A stretch of 64,000 bases of DNA, taken from positions 4,509,501 through 4,573,500 of the forward strand of contig NZ_CP049199.1 in the NCBI RefSeq assembly GCF_011045195.1, written 5' to 3'. Below, piece by piece: positions 4,569-62,087 of the stretch (the stretch's first letter is position 1; each line of letters starts with the position of its first letter). This DNA is from Caulobacter soli. GTDB lineage: Bacteria; Pseudomonadota; Alphaproteobacteria; Caulobacterales; Caulobacteraceae. A model generated the notes under the pieces. That model ran no database searches. It was not told where the DNA came from and saw only the letters and a list, made by a program, of their open reading frames with translations. A program made the position numbers and the translations under genes.

Positions 4569-5861
4569 ATGATCCTCCGCCTCGCCGCCGCGACCGCCGC
4601 CCTCGCCCTGCTCGCCACGCCGGCCTTCGCCGCGCCCGAGGGCGCCAAGCTGGACGCCATCGCCCAGGACTTCGTGCGCCTGACGCTGGAGGCCGGCGTG
4701 CGCGAGCCGGGCTATGTCGACGCCTATTACGGCCCCGCCGAATGGGCGAGCGTCGCCAAGGCCAAGCCGCGCGACGTGCCGGCCCTGCGCGCCGAGGCCG
4801 ACCGGCTGGCCGGCGCGCTGAAGGCCGTCGACGGCAAGGCGCTGGATCCCGACGAAATCCGCCGCAAGGCCTTCCTGGCCGGCCAGGTCAAGGCGGCCCA
4901 GACGCGCCTGGCCATGCTGGCCGGCGTCAAGTTCAGCTTCCAGGACGAGGCCGAGGGCCTGTTCGGCGTGCGCCCGCCGATCAAGCCGCTCAGCGCCTAC
5001 GACCCCGTCCTGGCCAGGATCGACAAGCTGGTCCCTGGCGAGGGCGACCTGGCGACCCGCGTCACCGCCTTCCAGGCCCGCTACACGATCCCGACCGACC
5101 GGCTGGAACCGGTGATGAAGGCGGCGATCGCCGAGTGCAAGGCGCGCACGCAGGCCCACATCGCCCTGCCCGCCAACGAGCGCTTCGACCTGGCGTTCGT
5201 CACCAAGAAGCCCTGGAGCGGCTACAACTGGTACAAGGGCGACGCCCACAGCCTGATCGAGGTCAACACCGACCTGCCCACCCCGATCAGCCGCGCCGTC
5301 GACCTGGGCTGCCACGAGGGCTATCCGGGCCACCACGTGCTCAACACCCTGCTGGAAGAAAAGCTGACCAAGGCCAGGGGCTGGGTCGAGTTCAGCGTCT
5401 ATCCGCTGTTCTCGCCGCAGTCGCTGATCGCCGAGGGCTCGGCCAACTACGGGATCAAGCTGGCCTTCCCGGGCGAGGAGAAGGTCGCGTTCGAGCGCAA
5501 GGTCCTCTACCCGCTGGCGGGCCTGGACCCGGCCACGGCCGACACCTACGACGCCCTGAGCAACGCCACGGCCGAACTGGCCAGCGTCCAGAACACCGTC
5601 GCCGACCTCTACCTATCGGGAAAGCTGGACAAGGCCGCCGCCGTCGACGCCCTGGCCAAATATACCCTGGCCACCCGCGCCAAGGCCGAGAAATCGCTGA
5701 GCTTTATCGAGACCTACCGGAGCTACGTGATCAACTACAACCTGGGCCAGGACATGGTCCGCGCCCACGTCGAACGGGCCGGCCCGTCGCAGGACGTGCG
5801 CTGGAAGCGGATGGAGGCGGTGATCTCGCAGCCGACCACGCCGGCGGACTTGACGAAGTAG
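4569..5861 (+). CDS. DUF885 family secreted protein, putative metallopeptidase
   Basis: A 430-residue member of the DUF885 family. The first ~20 residues (MILRLAAATAALALLATPAF) are a signal peptide with an AFA-A cleavage site, so it is probably periplasmic. The family hallmark is HEGYPGHH at about residues 253-260, which resembles the zinc-binding motif of gluzincin-like peptidases; a likely glutamate ligand is in AEGSANYG further on. Members are usually annotated as putative lipoproteins or carboxypeptidase-like enzymes; the activity of this one is unproven. It follows glpQ by 66 bases on the same strand and may be co-transcribed. Confidence 0.82.
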   Translation: MILRLAAATAALALLATPAFAAPEGAKLDAIAQDFVRLTLEAGVREPGYVDAYYGPAEWASVAKAKPRDVPALRAEADRLAGALKAVDGKALDPDEIRRKAFLAGQVKAAQTRLAMLAGVKFSFQDEAEGLFGVRPPIKPLSAYDPVLARIDKLVPGEGDLATRVTAFQARYTIPTDRLEPVMKAAIAECKARTQAHIALPANERFDLAFVTKKPWSGYNWYKGDAHSLIEVNTDLPTPISRAVDLGCHEGYPGHHVLNTLLEEKLTKARGWVEFSVYPLFSPQSLIAEGSANYGIKLAFPGEEKVAFERKVLYPLAGLDPATADTYDALSNATAELASVQNTVADLYLSGKLDKAAAVDALAKYTLATRAKAEKSLSFIETYRSYVINYNLGQDMVRAHVERAGPSQDVRWKRMEAVISQPTTPADLTK

Positions 5862-5931
5862 CCGCCAACGTCCGCCGCTTGACGGCCACATTGGCGCGGT
5901 CACTTTAGGCGAAGCCGTTGGAGGACAGGCG

Positions 5932-8082: not shown

Positions 8083-10005
8083 ATGCGTTTCGACGACCAT
8101 TTCCTCGATGAACTGAAGACCCGTCTTCGCCCTTCCGACGTGATCGGAAAGTCGGTGAAGCTGCGGCGGCAGGGGCGCGAGTACGCCGGTCTCTCGCCGT
8201 TCACCAAGGAAAAGAGCCCCTCGTTCTTCGTCAATGACGACAAGGGCTTCTATCACTGCTTCTCCAGCGGCAAGCACGGCGACATCATCTCCTATCTGCA
8301 GGAGACCGAGCGGCTGACCTTCACCGAGGCGGTGGAGCGGCTGGCGGCCGAGGCGGGCATGGCCCTGCCCGAGCCCGACGCCCGCGCCGCCCAGGAAGAC
8401 AAGAAGCGCGCCGGTCTGGGCGACTGGATGGAGCTGGCCTCGGCCTGGTTCGAGAGCGAGCTGCGCCGCCCGGTCGGCCAGGCCGCCCGCGACTACCTGG
8501 CCCGCCGCGCCCTGCCCGAGGACCAGTGGAGCCGCTTCCGCATCGGCTTCTCGCCCAATGGCCGCACGGCGCTGAAGGATTACCTGATCGCCAAGGGCGC
8601 CAAGCCGGCCGAGCTGGTCGACGCCGGCCTGCTGATCGCGCCCGAGGACGGCGGCCAGCCCTATGACCGTTTCCGCGACCGGATCATCTTCCCGATCACC
8701 GACACCCGGGGCCGGGTGGTCTCGTTCGGCGGCCGAGCCATGGATCCCGCCGCCCGCGCCAAGTACCTGAACGGGCCGGAGACCACGCTCTTCCACAAGG
8801 GCCGGCTGCTGTATGGTCTGTACGAGGCCCGCAAGCTGCTGCACGCCGCTCAGGCCGCCGCCCCCACCGAGCAGACGCCGATGCTGGTGGTCGAAGGCTA
8901 TATGGACGTCATCGCCTGCCAGCGCGCGGGCCTGCCGGCCGTCGCGCCGATGGGCACGGCCATGACCGAGGAGCAGATGGAGGTGCTGTGGCGCCTGCAT
9001 CCGGAACCCACCCTCAGCTTCGACGGCGACAAGGCCGGCCAGCGCGCCGCCGCCCGGGCCATCGACCGCGCCCTGCCGCTGCTCAAGCCCGGCCGCTCGT
9101 TCAAGTTCTCGATCGTGGTCGGCGGCAAGGATCCCGACGACGTGCTGCGCGAGCAGGGCCCGGCGGCGCTGAAGAGCCAGCTGACCCAGACCACGCCGTT
9201 CGTCGAGGCGCTGTTCGTCCGCGAGCGCGACCTGGAGCCGCTCGACACCCCCGAGCGCAAGGCCGGCCTCAAGCAGCGGCTGCGCGCCGCGGCCGGGACC
9301 ATCGCCGACAAGGACCTGGCCGCCGCCTATCGCGACGACCTCTACGCCAAGCTGGACGCGCTCTTCCCGAAGCCCGCCTTCGGCGATGGGGGCTCCAATG
9401 GCGGCGGCTATGGCGGCGGGCGGCCCTTCGTCCCGCGCGGCCAGTGGAAGGGCGGTCGCGATCGCGGTCCGCCCGATCCCGGCATCCGCGGCGTGGCCCG
9501 CGCCGAGATCGGCACGCGGCTGAAGCCCTTCCACGCCGCCGTGGCCATCGCGGCGCTGGACCATCCGGCCTGGGCCCGGCCTTATGACGAGGCCATCGAG
9601 CGCATCGGCTTCGGCGACCCGCGCCTGGCCCCGCTGGCGGCCGAGCTGTTCGACGCCCTGTCCGACGGCATCGGCGACGACACCCCGTTCCGCGCCATCC
9701 TCGACCGCAAGGGCCTGGGCGGCCAGGTCGCCGAGGTCGAGCGCGTGGCCGGGGCGATCACCGTCCCGTTCCTCGACCCCAAGATGGACCCGCATCGCGC
9801 CAAGGCCCTGTGGTCGGCCTGCTACGAGGCCCTGGTCGAGATCGGCGACAGCGAACGCGCCCTGGAGGCCCTGCGCCGCGAAGCCGTCACCGCCGGCACG
9901 CTGGCGGCCACCCGCGACCTGCGCACCCGGATCGGCGTGCTGGAGCGCCAGATCAGCGGCCTGGAGTTCTGGGAAGCCCCGCCGACGAGCGTGGCGATTA
10001 CCTGA
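8083..10005 (+). CDS. dnaG: DNA primase DnaG
   Basis: Makes RNA primers at the replication fork and works with DnaB helicase. The protein is 640 residues, normal for the family. The N-terminal CHC2-like domain (residues 1-100) keeps the fold signature SPFTKEKSPSFFV and FYHCFSSGKHGDII but has lost three of four zinc ligands: Ser38, Thr41 and Ser62 stand where Cys, His and Cys normally are, and only Cys59 remains. The TOPRIM catalytic region follows (VVEGYMDVIA with the catalytic Glu, later SFDGDKAG). A Gly-rich linker near residues 430-470 leads to the helicase-binding C-terminal domain. It is followed by rpoD, the usual macromolecular-synthesis order, with a 480-base gap. Confidence 0.97.
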   Translation: MRFDDHFLDELKTRLRPSDVIGKSVKLRRQGREYAGLSPFTKEKSPSFFVNDDKGFYHCFSSGKHGDIISYLQETERLTFTEAVERLAAEAGMALPEPDARAAQEDKKRAGLGDWMELASAWFESELRRPVGQAARDYLARRALPEDQWSRFRIGFSPNGRTALKDYLIAKGAKPAELVDAGLLIAPEDGGQPYDRFRDRIIFPITDTRGRVVSFGGRAMDPAARAKYLNGPETTLFHKGRLLYGLYEARKLLHAAQAAAPTEQTPMLVVEGYMDVIACQRAGLPAVAPMGTAMTEEQMEVLWRLHPEPTLSFDGDKAGQRAAARAIDRALPLLKPGRSFKFSIVVGGKDPDDVLREQGPAALKSQLTQTTPFVEALFVRERDLEPLDTPERKAGLKQRLRAAAGTIADKDLAAAYRDDLYAKLDALFPKPAFGDGGSNGGGYGGGRPFVPRGQWKGGRDRGPPDPGIRGVARAEIGTRLKPFHAAVAIAALDHPAWARPYDEAIERIGFGDPRLAPLAAELFDALSDGIGDDTPFRAILDRKGLGGQVAEVERVAGAITVPFLDPKMDPHRAKALWSACYEALVEIGDSERALEALRREAVTAGTLAATRDLRTRIGVLERQISGLEFWEAPPTSVAIT

Positions 10006-10485
10006 GGTCGTAACCTCGAGGCCGTCATTCCCGCGGCAAGTCCTAGGATGACGGGCGTTTTTGCCATGAGCGGAAATCGGCGCGATGGCACGCTGCCATC
10101 TTGACTCGCGCGTCATGCGACGCCATCTGGCGACTCAAGGATTTGCCACGCTGCTGATTGACATCGCTCGGGCCGCCATTTTCATGCGCGCGCCCTCCTT
10201 GAAACAGGATGTCACCCTCGCCGCCGCCAGGTCCCAGTGGCTGCCGAAACCTCCCAAGGGTCGACGCTGATCGCGCGCGAAGACAACGCCTCCGCAAAGA
10301 GCCCAGCTCGCGGAGCGTTCGGTCATGGCTCTTCGGCGTGTGTCAGGCGTTTATCTTGAGAATTTTTTCAGCGGTTCACTGGACAGCTTGCACGGACGAC
10401 AGGGCGCGAAGCGCAGGCGACCCACCACGGACACATTTTTCGACGCGCGCCACGACTTCGGCGCCGCGTCGTTTCGGAGACCTGA
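10006..10485. other. dnaG-rpoD intergenic region, no gene seen
   Basis: 480 bases without a convincing gene. The first ~50 bases hold a partial 'gtcattcccgcgg...' repeat arm (about 10023-10055). The rest probably contains the rpoD promoters and leader. I can see no canonical -35/-10 pair, and small open frames in it lack ribosome-binding sites and do not use codons like the neighbours. Confidence 0.5.
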
Positions 10486-52804: not shown

Positions 52805-52821
52805 GCCTTCTCCCCCTAACA

Positions 52822-52941
52822 GCCGTCATTCCCGCCCTTGTGGCGGAAACCCCTGGTTCAGCTGACAGTGAAGTGAAATGGCGCGCTGGCGCCCCCCCTC
52901 CGCACCTGCGGCGGACAGAGGGGCTCCGGCTACAAGGGCGT
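52822..52941. repeat. decayed family C repeat
   Basis: The left end (gccgtcattcccgcccttgt) is intact; the right end (ggctccggctacaagggcgtg) has changed. It marks the left side of the low-GC insert. The stretch 52942-53093 after it shows no gene. Confidence 0.65.
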
Positions 52942-53093
52942 GTGTTGATCTAGAGCGACACTTGTTGGCGGTAGCGATTTGAGGGTCTGTCGCTAGCCTT
53001 GGCGCCAAAGGCCGCTTTCGCCCCTTCTCGGACACCAGTTTGGTCGGCTCCTAGGCGGATAGGTTCGCGCTCGCGCGAGTCATCGCCGTCTTC

Positions 53094-53702
53094 TCACGTC
53101 ACCAAGCCGGCGATTGACCTACCGCACCGCAAGACGAAATCCGATGCATCGCTAACCGTTTGTTCGTCGATCGGCGTCTTGGCGTTCGTCAGTGGATGCA
53201 TGTCCGCCTCGTGAACAATGGCGTTTCGGCGGGTTACGTAGAGCCGCATCTGAGTGGTGACCGCTTCGCCGGTGGAGCCCATGGCTTGCCCGATCACCGC
53301 CCACTTATGCTTCATTGTCCAGATCAACGACAGCGCCTCAGCCACCTTGTCTGGGTCTTGGAATGAAAGGTGCGAGTGTCTGCGAACGATCTCCTGCTGA
53401 AAGATGAACTCACGCGGCGGCATTGTCGCTGTGGACATATCTCGATGGAGTTGGAGAGAGATCGTCTCGGCTTGGTAGCGGGCCGTTGGCGCACGAGTCC
53501 CGTTAAATGTCTCCATCATTCCAATGCGAACCAGATCGTGGATCAGTTTGTCGAACGCGCTTATTGAATATACGAGCTGCGATCTTAGCAAGTCGTCGTA
53601 GTTTACAGGTGTCTTTAAATGCGCGACGAGATACCCGTGTAGCGTCGATAGTTGTCGAGCCTCCTGCATTGCGCTTTCAAAAATCGCAAGCGCGTTAAGC
53701 AT
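53094..53702 (-). CDS. HEPN-domain protein (RiboL-PSP-HEPN type), second gene of a ParA-HEPN pair
   Basis: A 202-residue helical protein with the HEPN RNase signature: R159-x4-H164 in [15 protein letters not shown], the R-N-x3-H-x-A-D pattern of the RiboL-PSP-HEPN group. The N-terminal helices ([20 protein letters not shown]) also match that group, where 'S.sAFd.fih.l' recurs. HEPN proteins with this motif are often toxins or defence effectors that cut RNA; this activity is inferred. The ATG overlaps the end of the ParA-like gene by 8 bases (ATGCTTAA), so translation is coupled. GC content and codon use are clearly lower than the surrounding genome, a sign of horizontal transfer. Confidence 0.8.
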
Positions 53703-54723
53703 AGCCTAATTCAACCGCGATGCTGTCAGAGATAGATTCAAACTGTCCGTAGAACGAATCTCGCTTGTCTCTAAATCCCGTAAAAATGGGGCCCGTTTCA
53801 CCTATCTCTTGATCCGTGAGTTCAAAAACAGGCACGCCTGCATCGTGCGACTTAGGAAGAAGTCCCTGGAAATCAGGAATTTCCCCCAGACAATAACCGT
53901 TGGCCGAGATGTCATTGTAAGCAGCATCCGGTAGCGTTAAACCGAATATGGCAAAAGTAGAGAATACATCATTGCCAATTTTATTCTTAATGTCTGAAAT
54001 ATTATCCCTATACGGGCGAGCAGCTCGCCCTTTCCTAATGTTGAAACGCTGGATAAGCGTTCCCAAAAACTTTGGCACGCCAGCAGGGAGCGGGTAGGCG
54101 GAGTTTGCAAAAAGCGAAACGGAAGACAGCTTCCATGCAACCCATCGTGGTAGCGCCACCTTAAGTGTATCTAGCGCCATGATCGAAAATGGATCGGGGT
54201 TGGTCGGAATGATGAACGCATCCGATATGAGGAAGAGATTTTGATTGATCGCACTTAGGCTGGGATTCAAATCTATTATTGTATATTCGATGTTGTATTT
54301 TTCTTCCGTCAACCTAAGTAATTCTGCGAACGCTCCTGGCAGATTTTGGAGGGTAACCAGTGCGTTGTTGGCCGTCTGGGCGAATGTCAACGCTGCGTCA
54401 TATTCGGAAAGATTCGCGTGGCCAGCTAGAAGGCGCAGGTTGGGGGCTCGCGCAGGGGCTACACAATCAACGGCCGTGATGGGTATCGGTCGACCATCGA
54501 AGGTAGCCGACACGCCGTCTTTGATGTTTTGCGTTCGGGTCGGCTCATCGGTGTAATATTTCTCGAAATCGTCGCCCAAGACTAACCCAGAAAGATTACA
54601 TTGGGGGTCAGCGTCCACGAGTAAGACGCGGCTCTTCTTAGATAACATCCATCCGATATTGTAGGCCGACGTGGTCTTGCTCACTCCACCTTTGTGATTG
54701 AATACGACCAGTCGCTTAGCCAT
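53695..54723 (-). CDS. ParA/MinD-like ATPase, first gene of a ParA-HEPN pair
   Basis: A 342-residue deviant-Walker ATPase. The P-loop is [15 protein letters not shown] (residues 8-22; signature Lys11 and Lys16), the Walker A' region is [14 protein letters not shown] (Asp37, Asp39), and the switch/Walker B strand is [20 protein letters not shown]. The remainder, about 150 residues longer than a minimal ParA, has segments such as [20 protein letters not shown]. No ParB gene or parS sites lie nearby and the position is chromosomal, so plasmid partition is unlikely. It is coupled to a HEPN gene and has foreign base composition. The start ATG 54723 is well placed before [13 protein letters not shown]. 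Confidence 0.85.
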
Positions 54724-55245
54724 CACACTGCCTGCCTCAGTTGACCTACACGCAAGATAACTACCGCAAGTGGCCAGTTCGCGCGAACTGGAATATTGCG
54801 CCTTCCCTGGCGCGTCGCGAGGTAGTCGCCGCACAGATGCGGGTGCCACGGTCCAGTAAATGGGTCCGAATTCATCCGTTGGGGCTGGTTCAAGCCGCAT
54901 GCGTGAGGCTCTTGGTGGAGAACTGAGGCGGTTGGTCAACACCACGCGATGGCGTCCGCCCACCCTTTGCCTACACCAAGTCCGTCCGTTTTGAATGGAT
55001 TGTCGGTAGCGGTGGAGGTCTCCATCACAACGGCGGGAATGATGGGCAAATTGAGAGATCGGGCGGAATATCGGCCACCCGCCCTGTCCCAGCCTCGCGG
55101 CTCGTCGAGCGCCGGGTCCACGCGCCTGCCCCATGAGCAAAAATGCATCACCCGCACCGTCTTCGCATCCTCTCCCCAATGATCCGCTTGAATGACGTTA
55201 TGATATAACATACACGGCCGAGGTTCGCTTTTTTGGGAGAGCCTC
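54724..55245. other. gene-poor right flank of the ParA-HEPN insert
   Basis: About 520 bases with no convincing gene. A fragment of the family C repeat (ggtctccatcacaacggcgg, about 55022-55047, inverted) lies in it. Open frames exist on both strands but lack good starts or family resemblance. The last 50 bases hold the Zur-type box and the start region of the ZnuD-like gene. Remnants of a decayed gene are possible. Confidence 0.45.
55197..55209. promoter_or_regulatory. Zur-box-like palindrome
   Basis: GTTAT-GAT-ATAAC is a perfect palindrome around three bases and matches the GTTATnnTATAAC-type Zur boxes known from alphaproteobacteria. It lies 37 bases before the ATG of a ZnuD-like receptor gene, where zinc-bound Zur would block transcription. 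Confidence 0.75.
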
Positions 55246-59906: not shown

Positions 59907-60055
59907 GGGGAGTGTATCATTCCTTCAGAGCGTCACTTTGAACGTCCGACCTGATGCAACTTTTCCGCAAGGCTGCAGAAGGCGAGTTTGTGTTCAAGCT
60001 TAGCAATCAATGCTAGGTGGTGCCTATCCAATTCTACATGCGCGCGGGAGTGATC

Positions 60056-60706
60056 GTGGGGGAAGCAAAGAGGAGACGCGATAAGGGCGAAATGCCCTAC
60101 CAGCAGCCTCAACCAAAAGGTTGGCCTTCAAGGGTCGACAAAGGAAGAGCGCTCGCTGCGTTCGTCCGTTGTTCCCAATCCGCCCCGACCACTCCCAAGC
60201 ATCCGCTTTCAGAAAGGGTCGAAGACTTTTGCGGACGACTTAGCTCATCTCCACCTGTACTGCTTCAGCTCACTGAGACTACAGAAAACTACAAAGCCGG
60301 ATTCTGCCATGCGAACGTGCTCCATCAGGTTAAACACCATGGCGGACATCAAGTTTACGGATGGATGATCTGGGAAGGTACGAACTTTGTTGAAGCCGAG
60401 TTCCATAGCGTTTGGCAAAGCGGCGAAAATAGCGAACTTCTAGACATTACGCCGCGTATAGATGGCGAATTCGAAGTCCTTTTTCTCCCGGACCCGACAA
60501 CCCGACTGACCAGAGTCGGCGAGGTGGACTACGGAATCGCAAACAGGACGGATATTCCCGAGTGCCCTTACACAGCGGCAAGACAGCCTTATCCGACCCC
60601 GACCTACCCCATGGACTACAGTCTCGATCGCGAAATGATCGTGGAGATGCGACGGCTAGGATTTTCAAAACTGTCGCAGGCAATTGGACTAGACGCCTTC
60701 GACTAG
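60056..60706 (+). CDS. hypothetical protein with a possible Cys-His-Asp triad
   Basis: A 216-residue protein of lower GC content than its neighbours. The GTG start at 60056 gives the N-terminus VGEAKRRRDKG, matching the common 'MGEAKRR' opening of many uncharacterised proteins, and GGGAG lies 5 bases upstream. The central region has Cys84 (KAGFCHANV), then GGHQVYGWMIWE, His117 (EAEFHSVW) and Asp130 (ELLDITPR), an order seen in papain-like and transglutaminase-like enzymes. A short VLFLPDPTT strand follows. Activity is inference; no family name is known to me. Composition suggests transfer into the trxB-SleB interval. Confidence 0.65.
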   Translation: MGEAKRRRDKGEMPYQQPQPKGWPSRVDKGRALAAFVRCSQSAPTTPKHPLSERVEDFCGRLSSSPPVLLQLTETTENYKAGFCHANVLHQVKHHGGHQVYGWMIWEGTNFVEAEFHSVWQSGENSELLDITPRIDGEFEVLFLPDPTTRLTRVGEVDYGIANRTDIPECPYTAARQPYPTPTYPMDYSLDREMIVEMRRLGFSKLSQAIGLDAFD

Positions 60707-60860
60707 TCTGACTGCCGTTTGTTGACGTGAAAATGCCTTCCCCGATTATGAGAAACCTCCACCCCACGCAGCTGCGACATTCAATGACTGGCGGTACACC
60801 AACATACACGTCGCTAGCCGTGTCCATTGGCTAGACGTTGAGCTTTGGGGAGATAGCCCC

Positions 60861-62087
60861 CTAGTTCAACGGGTCCAGCAGGCTCGGCGGCCGCTGCCTG
60901 GGCGGCGGCGGGGGTGGAGGCGGCGGGGGCGCGGCTTCGACGGTCTTGACCGTCGTATCCACCACGGGCGCCTCGATCGCGCCCAGGGCCTTGTTGATCT
61001 TGGCGATCTCCTCGGCCGTGGGCAGGCGGCGGCCGCCGCGCATGGCGGCGGCGGGGTCACCGGTCATCGGCGGCAGGATCTCGACCACGCCCTCGGGGCT
61101 GACGATCTTGGCCGGCTCGCCGGTCGCGGCGGGGACCAGGCCGGCGCCGCCGGCCGCCACGGCCGCCAGGGAGCCCGGCGGCGCGGCTTCCAGGGTGCGG
61201 GGATCCGCCCCCATCAGGATCTCGGCCGACAGCGTCTCGTTGCCCGAATAGCGTCCCTTGAACGCCGCCTGCGTGCCCGACGGTCCGGTCCAGCGATAGA
61301 AGATGTGCGCCCCCAGGGTGCGCAGCTTGACCAGGGTTGGCGCCCAGTACGGATAGACGTAGTTGGCGTGGTAGTGGGTGGCCGCCCCGACGTCCCTCAT
61401 CACGTAGCCGGACAGGGCCCGCTTGGCGACGATCTCGGCGTTGGTCCAGATCGTGGGACTGATCGCCCGCTCCAGAGAACCGTCGCAAGTGAAGCTGAAC
61501 TGGCAGCCCGTGCCCCGCGCCGCGCCCTCGTAGACGACGCCGCAGATCGACTTGGGATAGCCTGGGTGGCGCACCCGGTTGATCACGGTCTGGGCCACGG
61601 CCTGCTGCCCCTCGATCGGCTCGAAGCCGGCCTCGAAATAGACCGCCTGGGTCATGCAGTGCAGGGCCTGGTCGCGCACGGCCTGCGAGCCGGTCAGCAT
61701 GAACGGCCGCGAGGGCTCCAGCGCCAGGGGCGAGGCGGGCTTGTAGCTGTTGATCAGCCGTGCTTCGTCGAAGTCGGCGTCGCGGTCGCCCAGGCGCGGT
61801 ATCCGGTGCAGGTCCAGCTTTTCCCAGCCGGGCACGCGGCCCCAATAGTCCTTGTGCGGCCGGGGATCGTGCCGCCGGGCCAGGGCCAGCATGGCCGGGT
61901 CCATGTCGGCCGTGTAGCGGGCCAGGCCCGCGTCGGACAGGCTGCCGGCCAGCCGGGCCACGCCCGCCGCCCGCCCCGCGCCCGCCGGCATGTAGTAGGT
62001 GGCGCACGCGGAAAGGCCGCCGAGGGCGACGAGCGCGCCCCCGACGACCTTGACGGCCTTAACGGTGTATCGGTCTAGACCGGGCAC
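60861..62087 (-). CDS. SleB-type cell-wall hydrolase
   Basis: A 408-residue peptidoglycan hydrolase of the Hydrolase_2 (SleB/CwlJ) family. The N-terminus has a hydrophobic helix with Cys (VVGGALVALGGLSACATYY), a probable lipoprotein signal (LSAC). The catalytic domain is at about residues 145-255: CMTQAVYFEAGFEPIEGQQA (with the catalytic Glu in YFEA), VAQTVINRVRHPGYPKSICG, GCQFSFTCDG and ATHYHANYVYPYWAPTL. The C-terminal third is low complexity, ending in a poly-Pro run. It should act on peptidoglycan in the periplasm. Start ATG 62087; it ends next to a gap of about 150 bases with no gene. Confidence 0.9.
   Translation of the reverse strand: MPGLDRYTVKAVKVVGGALVALGGLSACATYYMPAGAGRAAGVARLAGSLSDAGLARYTADMDPAMLALARRHDPRPHKDYWGRVPGWEKLDLHRIPRLGDRDADFDEARLINSYKPASPLALEPSRPFMLTGSQAVRDQALHCMTQAVYFEAGFEPIEGQQAVAQTVINRVRHPGYPKSICGVVYEGAARGTGCQFSFTCDGSLERAISPTIWTNAEIVAKRALSGYVMRDVGAATHYHANYVYPYWAPTLVKLRTLGAHIFYRWTGPSGTQAAFKGRYSGNETLSAEILMGADPRTLEAAPPGSLAAVAAGGAGLVPAATGEPAKIVSPEGVVEILPPMTGDPAAAMRGGRRLPTAEEIAKINKALGAIEAPVVDTTVKTVEAAPPPPPPPPPPRQRPPSLLDPLN

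Follow-up and report, generated by a model that had tools for sequence, protein, structure and literature searches.

What role might a ParA-like ATPase play when the gene that follows it encodes not ParB but a putative HEPN ribonuclease (RNase)? This question is raised by a pair of minus-strand genes in a 64,000-nucleotide stretch of Caulobacter soli (assembly GCF_011045195.1, contig NZ_CP049199.1; genome of 5.68 Mb in two contigs), which is called the window below. The two reading frames overlap by 8 bases, with coordinates and strands exactly as a preliminary description of this DNA had placed them. That description regarded the genes as a coupled two-gene module, which is borne out by the overlap, the fixed gene order in relatives, and the presence of HEPN in 78 of 80 related loci. 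We propose, with a probability of roughly 60%, that the pair is a conserved toxin-antitoxin-type defence module carried by phages, plasmids, and chromosomes, in which the ATPase would hold back the HEPN protein, probably an RNase toxin, and would release it upon disturbance of the cell by a phage or rival element. The observations behind this proposal are the overlap, the fixed order, broad conservation, intact catalytic motifs, agreeing trees, and mobile carriage. The features concerned are as follows.

53695..54723, minus strand: ParA-like ATPase (deviant Walker A), 342 amino acids, first gene of the pair, ATG at 54723
53094..53702, minus strand: HEPN-domain protein (PF18735, RiboL-PSP-HEPN), 202 amino acids, second gene of the pair, predicted RNase
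53695..53702, minus strand: 8-base overlap ATGCTTAA of the ATPase and HEPN reading frames, coordinates exact
54670..54696, minus strand: HKGGVSKTT, deviant Walker A loop, ATPase residues 10-18
54034..54036, minus strand: codon of ATPase R230, which in an alignment falls on the arginine that serves DNA binding in chromosomal ParA
53211..53228, minus strand: HEPN motif R159-x4-H164 (R159-N-A-I-V-H164), in 97/97 sequences

Linkage and distribution of the pair

A scan of 84,980 species, with one genome each, gave 433 pattern matches, of which 406 were relatives of the ATPase, and the best 80 of these 406 (at least 46% identity) were analyzed as loci. By profile, HEPN lay downstream of the ATPase in 78 of the 80. 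Both genes were intact in 73 loci, only the HEPN gene was broken in four (L037, L042, L057, and L093), only the ATPase gene in one (L053), and a contig end cut two more (L043 and L100). In L037, from Crocosphaera, all that is left of the HEPN protein in one frame is residues 1-42 and 188-202 (positions 9710-9880), and the motif is lost. The identical 8-base overlap recurs in 30 of 96 related pairs. Judging by record titles, many of them of metagenome-assembled genomes, the 80 loci belong to Alpha-, Beta-, and Gammaproteobacteria, Desulfobacterota and "Deltaproteobacteria," Campylobacterota, Cyanobacteria, Bacteroidota, Firmicutes, Spirochaetes, Chloroflexota, and Acidobacteria; the same gene order is found in at least nine bacterial phyla as well as in phages and plasmids. 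Fused ATPase-HEPN proteins were absent from the loci read, although no dedicated search for them was made.

Searches from the HEPN side led back to the ATPase, which adjoined HEPN in 2/2 phage records, 3/3 viral contigs, 13/13 plasmid records (12 from Burkholderia glumae; one HEPN matched only to residue 128), and, with the window's own genome included, 2/2 genomes of a 385-genome class sample and 4/5 of a 398-genome phylum sample. The exception is L211 (positions 4659-5922), where a distant PF18735-type HEPN without ParA is followed by an open reading frame (ORF) resembling RidA/endoRNase L-PSP; this ORF matches the PADLOC model PD-T4-2_B (4.7e-20) and fits the Pfam name RiboL-PSP-HEPN. The preliminary description had counted HEPN relatives that stand without the ATPase and lack the motif as evidence against its reading. 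Relatives of the first kind do exist, as this distant case (1/5 in the phylum sample) illustrates, yet the motif is kept in all 97 sequences aligned, the query among them. Within the genus Caulobacter, an ATPase relative (E 1e-30) occurs in 2 of 75 genomes, namely, C. soli and one at 44% identity, also with HEPN. Because the searches from both sides agree and so few genomes of the genus hold an ATPase relative, the pair is both tightly linked and sporadic in its distribution. In the viral set, the linkage follows ATPase identity, with HEPN downstream in 7/7 cases at 45% or above, 13/20 at 35 to 45%, and 0/53 below 35%.

The two genes also share a history. The query and 96 relatives, among them a few viral duplicates, gave 97 sequence pairs, across which ATPase and HEPN distances were correlated at 0.80, compared with a maximum of 0.24 in 999 permutations. 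On 74 of these pairs, 39 of 71 splits agreed between the two trees, compared with at most 2 in 100 shuffles. Phylum labels, assigned from record titles, changed 14 times on the ATPase tree, against at least 37 times in 200 shuffles. Judging from the trees and label changes, the module seems to have been kept largely within phyla and sometimes exchanged among them.

The close coupling of the genes and their shared history would suit a complex as well as a toxin-antitoxin pair. In the most serious rival to our proposal, the HEPN RNase would need the ATPase as an activator or targeting subunit, so that each protein by itself is harmless and RNA is cut by the complex only when a phage is sensed. 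ABC ATPases probably serve RloC/PrrC-type HEPN nucleases in this way. We regard this alternative as unlikely, and the evidence that bears on it is taken up again below.

The ATPase is not a partition protein

The ATPase has the deviant Walker A loop and the ParA fold of a ParA/MinD (SIMIBI) ATPase and matches Pfam AAA_31/ParA; the loop KGGVSKTT is intact in the 342-residue protein, as had been described. Residues K11, K16, D37, D39, and D151 are invariant in 103/103 HEPN-paired ATPases, although the invariance of the Walker loop is in part a matter of ascertainment, because the scan pattern included that loop. S15 is present in 101/103 paired ATPases and in 60/68 unpaired relatives; therefore, it marks the wider clade and not pairing with HEPN. 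R230 (101/103 paired, 50/68 unpaired) falls opposite R198 in an alignment with the ParA that the genome encodes elsewhere, a position that, allowing for an offset in numbering, should be R195 of Caulobacter and R189 of Bacillus subtilis. Exchange of these arginines for glutamate abolished DNA binding (PMC10120649). Given this alignment, the ATPase would be expected to bind DNA.

A partition locus (ParABS) was considered and rejected. A tblastn search of the window with the genome's own ParB found no ParB (best E 0.78), no convincing parS was seen in the window (one match with 3 mismatches versus 0.45 expected), and ParB was found in 0/80 flanks of the relatives with one ParB query. These results agree with the earlier view that partition is unlikely, and the parB neighbors that would have spoken against that view did not appear. 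The genome has a separate parA-parB locus elsewhere (genes named by ORF reading), so the ATPase of the window is a second, orphan ParA.

The HEPN protein is a predicted RNase

The second protein has the family profile and the all-helical fold of HEPN proteins. PF18735 (RiboL-PSP-HEPN) was matched by 73/73 scanned members, and PF18737 (MAE_28990/MAE_18760-like) was also matched by 4/73 (E 0.01); the C. soli protein itself gave no PF18737 match at E 1 by Pfam profile. In an alignment of loci chosen by their ATPase, with the HEPN required to match the profile at 1e-15 and to have at least 165 amino acids, L39, R40, D51, H55, R159, H164, and D167 were invariant in 97/97 sequences, the query included. 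The R-x4-H motif reported earlier is therefore intact and general, and the protein probably acts as an RNase that needs to dimerize. A PDB sequence search gave nothing meaningful and Foldseek with the HEPN model gave no match at E 0.001; in a VIA second look at the model, HEPN chains ranked first and the best structural neighbors included HepT. The invariant L39, R40, D51, and H55 lie far from the motif in the sequence and could form a docking surface, which would fit the activator alternative.

Neither protein could be assigned to a catalogued system. PADLOC-DB 2.0.0 had no HEPN match at E 1, and its only ATPase match was the candidate PDC-M28B, over 38 residues at the Walker loop (E 5.8e-4). 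NCBIfam had no real match to HEPN (one row, E 0.088), and of its 18 rows that match the ATPase at E 1, none reached the cut-off. With no real HEPN match and ATPase rows below cut-off, a PADLOC or NCBIfam system was ruled out.

Carriage on phages and plasmids

The pair is carried by phages, prophages, and plasmids, in agreement with the mobile character first suggested for it. In the Pf1 prophage record AY324828, it lies between Orf71 and att2; the ATPase is the Soj-like Orf317, and the HEPN gene (L010, positions 9741-10265) is unannotated and encodes 175 amino acids, with a C terminus about 27 residues shorter than that of the query. Phage WX-TY has both genes. Baseplate genes were found on the L102 and L103 contigs, an integrase on L102 and L114, and portal and head genes on L106. 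A ParA-domain gene unique to Pf5 of strain PA14 has been described (PMC7379572), as have three additional genes of this prophage, PA14_49010-49030 (PMC3820363); these are likely the same ATPase-HEPN pair.

Such carriage raises two further alternatives: (i) the pair may be an addiction system that stabilizes a plasmid or prophage replicon and has no role in defence. The copies on Burkholderia plasmids and in prophages would fit this, as would the ParA fold, which is that of partition proteins. However, contigs longer than 100 kb carry many of the 80 relatives, the copy of the window lies on a contig of more than 5.2 Mb, and one ParB query found no ParB in any of the 80 flanks; we consider a pure addiction role improbable. 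(ii) The pair may regulate lysogeny or superinfection in filamentous phages, with HEPN as the effector. The Pf1 record names the ATPase a putative regulatory protein, the pair is located in the accessory region that varies among Pf-type phages, and KKP, another accessory module of Pf, combines both functions (PMC11341870). Since the pair is equally conserved on genome contigs of Cyanobacteria, Bacteroidota, and Firmicutes, where inovirus surroundings were neither sought nor seen, this alternative appears very improbable.

How might the ATPase control the HEPN protein?

In the toxin-antitoxin-type module that we favor, the HEPN protein would be an RNase toxin. The ATPase, bound to ATP and to DNA on the nucleoid, would keep it inactive and so give an "all is well" signal; the toxin would be set free whenever this bound state ended, be it through loss of the nucleoid, through phage DNA, or through falling ATP. 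The ATPase would thus be antitoxin and sensor and not a required activator. What triggers the release is the weakest step of the proposal. In favor of a toxin over the activator alternative, HEPN is the broken partner in four of the five decayed copies, which leans weakly that way, and the regulator gene comes first, as is usual in toxin-antitoxin pairs.

Several points weigh against the proposal, besides the ascertainment of the Walker loop. The 4:1 asymmetry in decay is too small to carry weight and is possibly an error of draft assemblies. The wider ATPase clade also works without HEPN: 36 of the 53 viral ATPases below 35% identity have no downstream ORF of 60 amino acids. No activity, toxicity, or phage test of the pair was found in the literature. 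The window's own pair has a LacI-type regulator and TonB receptors as neighbors, and no conserved defence island was seen around it. The nearest ORFs of the 80 loci (274/278 ORFs, called greedily, those above 1,200 amino acids dropped) match 247 and 315 PADLOC models in two batches, compared with 17 for 134 ORFs from ten arbitrary stretches of class-mates, and they include type I-D CRISPR, type I restriction, and viperin models. This contrast counts models and not proteins, so that one methylase or Cas protein matches many (neighboring type II methylases also match Druantia and DISARM models); the models mad2, mad3, mad8, and HEC-01A also match the control, the genomes of which all come from the window's own class; and the commonest Pfam neighbors are mixed and often housekeeping (Uma2 in 6/138, phage integrase in 4/136). 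Therefore, the loci are enriched in neighbors that match defence models, but this is not a rule. As context for protection from phages, this enrichment is indirect.

Other partners of related ATPases

A second type of partner was met in the wider clade. In L178 (positions 831-2647), the gene of a divergent viral ATPase with 32% identity and the loop KGGVGKTT shares 4 bases with the gene downstream, which encodes a RelA/SpoT-domain protein (PF04607, 7e-13). The same order occurs in L225 (1498-3207), a genome that gave the sole match at 1e-60 among 299, and in L224 (1467-3157), a Caballeronia plasmid found from the RelA/SpoT side, where the listed ATPase ORF only begins past the Walker loop, which makes its start uncertain. 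In L225 and L178, another ORF, of about 200 amino acids, directly precedes the ATPase. The RelA/SpoT proteins of L178 and L225 matched no PADLOC model at E 0.01. The arrangement resembles toxSAS toxins (CapRel and PhRel) in having a RelA/SpoT-type gene, here preceded in three places by a related ParA, and it suggests from these three cases that such ParAs can control more than one toxin. In one paper that contains both toxSAS and ParA, "Para" is a promoter.

A bolder extension is that a ParA-like clade was taken from partition to serve as a general toxin gate, which, nucleoid-bound with ATP, silences a swappable effector (a HEPN RNase or a RelA/SpoT-type synthetase). We hold this to be doubtful. 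Against it, and against our proposal, ParA is missing beside the other plasmid RelA/SpoT match, from Geobacillus, and no RelA/SpoT match was seen in the adjoining DNA examined for six viral ATPases with 29-39% identity to the L178 ATPase; the Geobacillus match, together with two further viral relatives without the pairing, led us to give the toxin gate less weight. If it were true, the clade would guard nucleoid integrity as an immune sensor built on ParA, with effectors that can be exchanged. The pairing with RelA/SpoT also gives an independent, second way to test the logic proposed for the ATPase.

Salmonella P22-like phage records (H26-H31, seen as search matches) and the viral contigs L126-L180 also encode ParA-like proteins that belong to this wider clade at less than 35% identity. 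In L118 (8314-10958), a 229-residue extension lies at the N terminus of the ATPase frame, and the next gene, which overlaps it by 4 bases, encodes 310 residues that match no Pfam family. A HEPN-like partner for the divergent phage ATPases L118 and L120 was rejected (hhalign probability of 0.2% each).

The low-GC block around the pair

Both a foreign base composition and a position between repeat copies had been noted for the pair, and both hold.

52941..55181: low-GC block containing the pair; left bound set by the repeat, right bound by right-flank homology with a relative
52809..52940: dispersed palindromic repeat at the block edge, many copies in C. soli and related genomes
55017..55045: inverted partial copy of the 52809-52940 repeat
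54774..54791: perfect 18-base palindrome CCAGTTCGCGCGAACTGG, possible operator, 51-68 bases upstream of the ATPase start

The guanine-plus-cytosine (GC) content of the block is 53.6%, compared with 68.5% for the window, and only 1 of 248 sliding windows of 2,241 nucleotides is as low. At third codon positions, the GC content of the two genes is 52% and 66%, compared with 96% and 93% for the two flanking genes. A second dip, to 56%, occurs at positions 60001-61000. No genome examined had both flanks of the block; relatives share one flank each. The palindrome is real in the window but was rejected as an operator common to relatives, because perfect palindromes (arms of at least 8) occur within 250 bases upstream in only 4/100 of them, with one in control stretches further upstream. 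Promoter and terminator scans gave 0 (1.6 expected) and 4 (3.0 expected), respectively.

Comparison with known systems

The pair shares with the HEPN-MNT system (HepT-MntA) a HEPN RNase, predicted as such here, with an R-x4-6-H motif and a nucleotide-using partner encoded beside it. The partner there is an AMPylating nucleotidyltransferase (PMC7641770), whereas here it is a P-loop ATPase of the ParA/MinD type (AAA_31/ParA) and no MNT nucleotidyltransferase, and the HEPN protein is about 70 residues longer than in HEPN-MNT systems. With the ParABS ATPases (Soj/ParA and McdA), the present ATPase has in common the fold, the deviant Walker A, the catalytic-type aspartate, and the DNA-binding arginine, but it differs in having S for G in the Walker loop, a HEPN partner, and no ParB or parS found, and it exceeds the chromosomal ParA of this genome by about 70 residues. 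If a partition-type ATPase controls an RNase, release of the toxin would depend on ATP or on how the chromosome fares, and sensing of this kind was not met for any HEPN system in the available text of the literature searched. Like KKP, an accessory module of Pf filamentous prophages with toxin-antitoxin character, the pair is a Pf accessory module and probably of that character, although KKP consists of two kinases and a phosphatase, which are unrelated proteins. Roux et al. (2019, PMC6813254) described 15 sets of putative toxin-antitoxin families in 181 inovirus genomes, in a study whose main text does not contain the word "HEPN"; of 10 inovirus proteins that were tested, 2 markedly restricted infection by other phages.

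The closest precedent is a gene dyad of a MAE_18760-family HEPN and a ParA/Soj-like ATPase, postulated by Anantharaman et al. in 2013 to be an RNase toxin and its antitoxin, the latter acting through nucleotide-dependent conformational change or phosphorylation (PMC3710099). The preliminary description knew of no named system of this form, a remark that does not hold as worded in view of this dyad, although the HEPN family is another one. In the literature searched (preprint servers outside, few subscription papers), no other description of a ParA/Soj-HEPN pair was found in the available text, and no experiment on the present pair or the 2013 dyad. In both, an active-type HEPN gene adjoins a ParA/Soj ATPase gene; the HEPN here is PF18735 in 73/73, by Pfam profile only, and not of the MAE_18760 family, and the same paper lists RiboL-PSP-HEPN as a separate family, in an operon with ParB. 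In terms of sequence families, the pair is a variant of the predicted dyad kind with a sister HEPN family. Since its carriers span many phyla and include Pf-type phages that can be grown on laboratory hosts, the prediction of 2013 becomes directly testable in this sister family.
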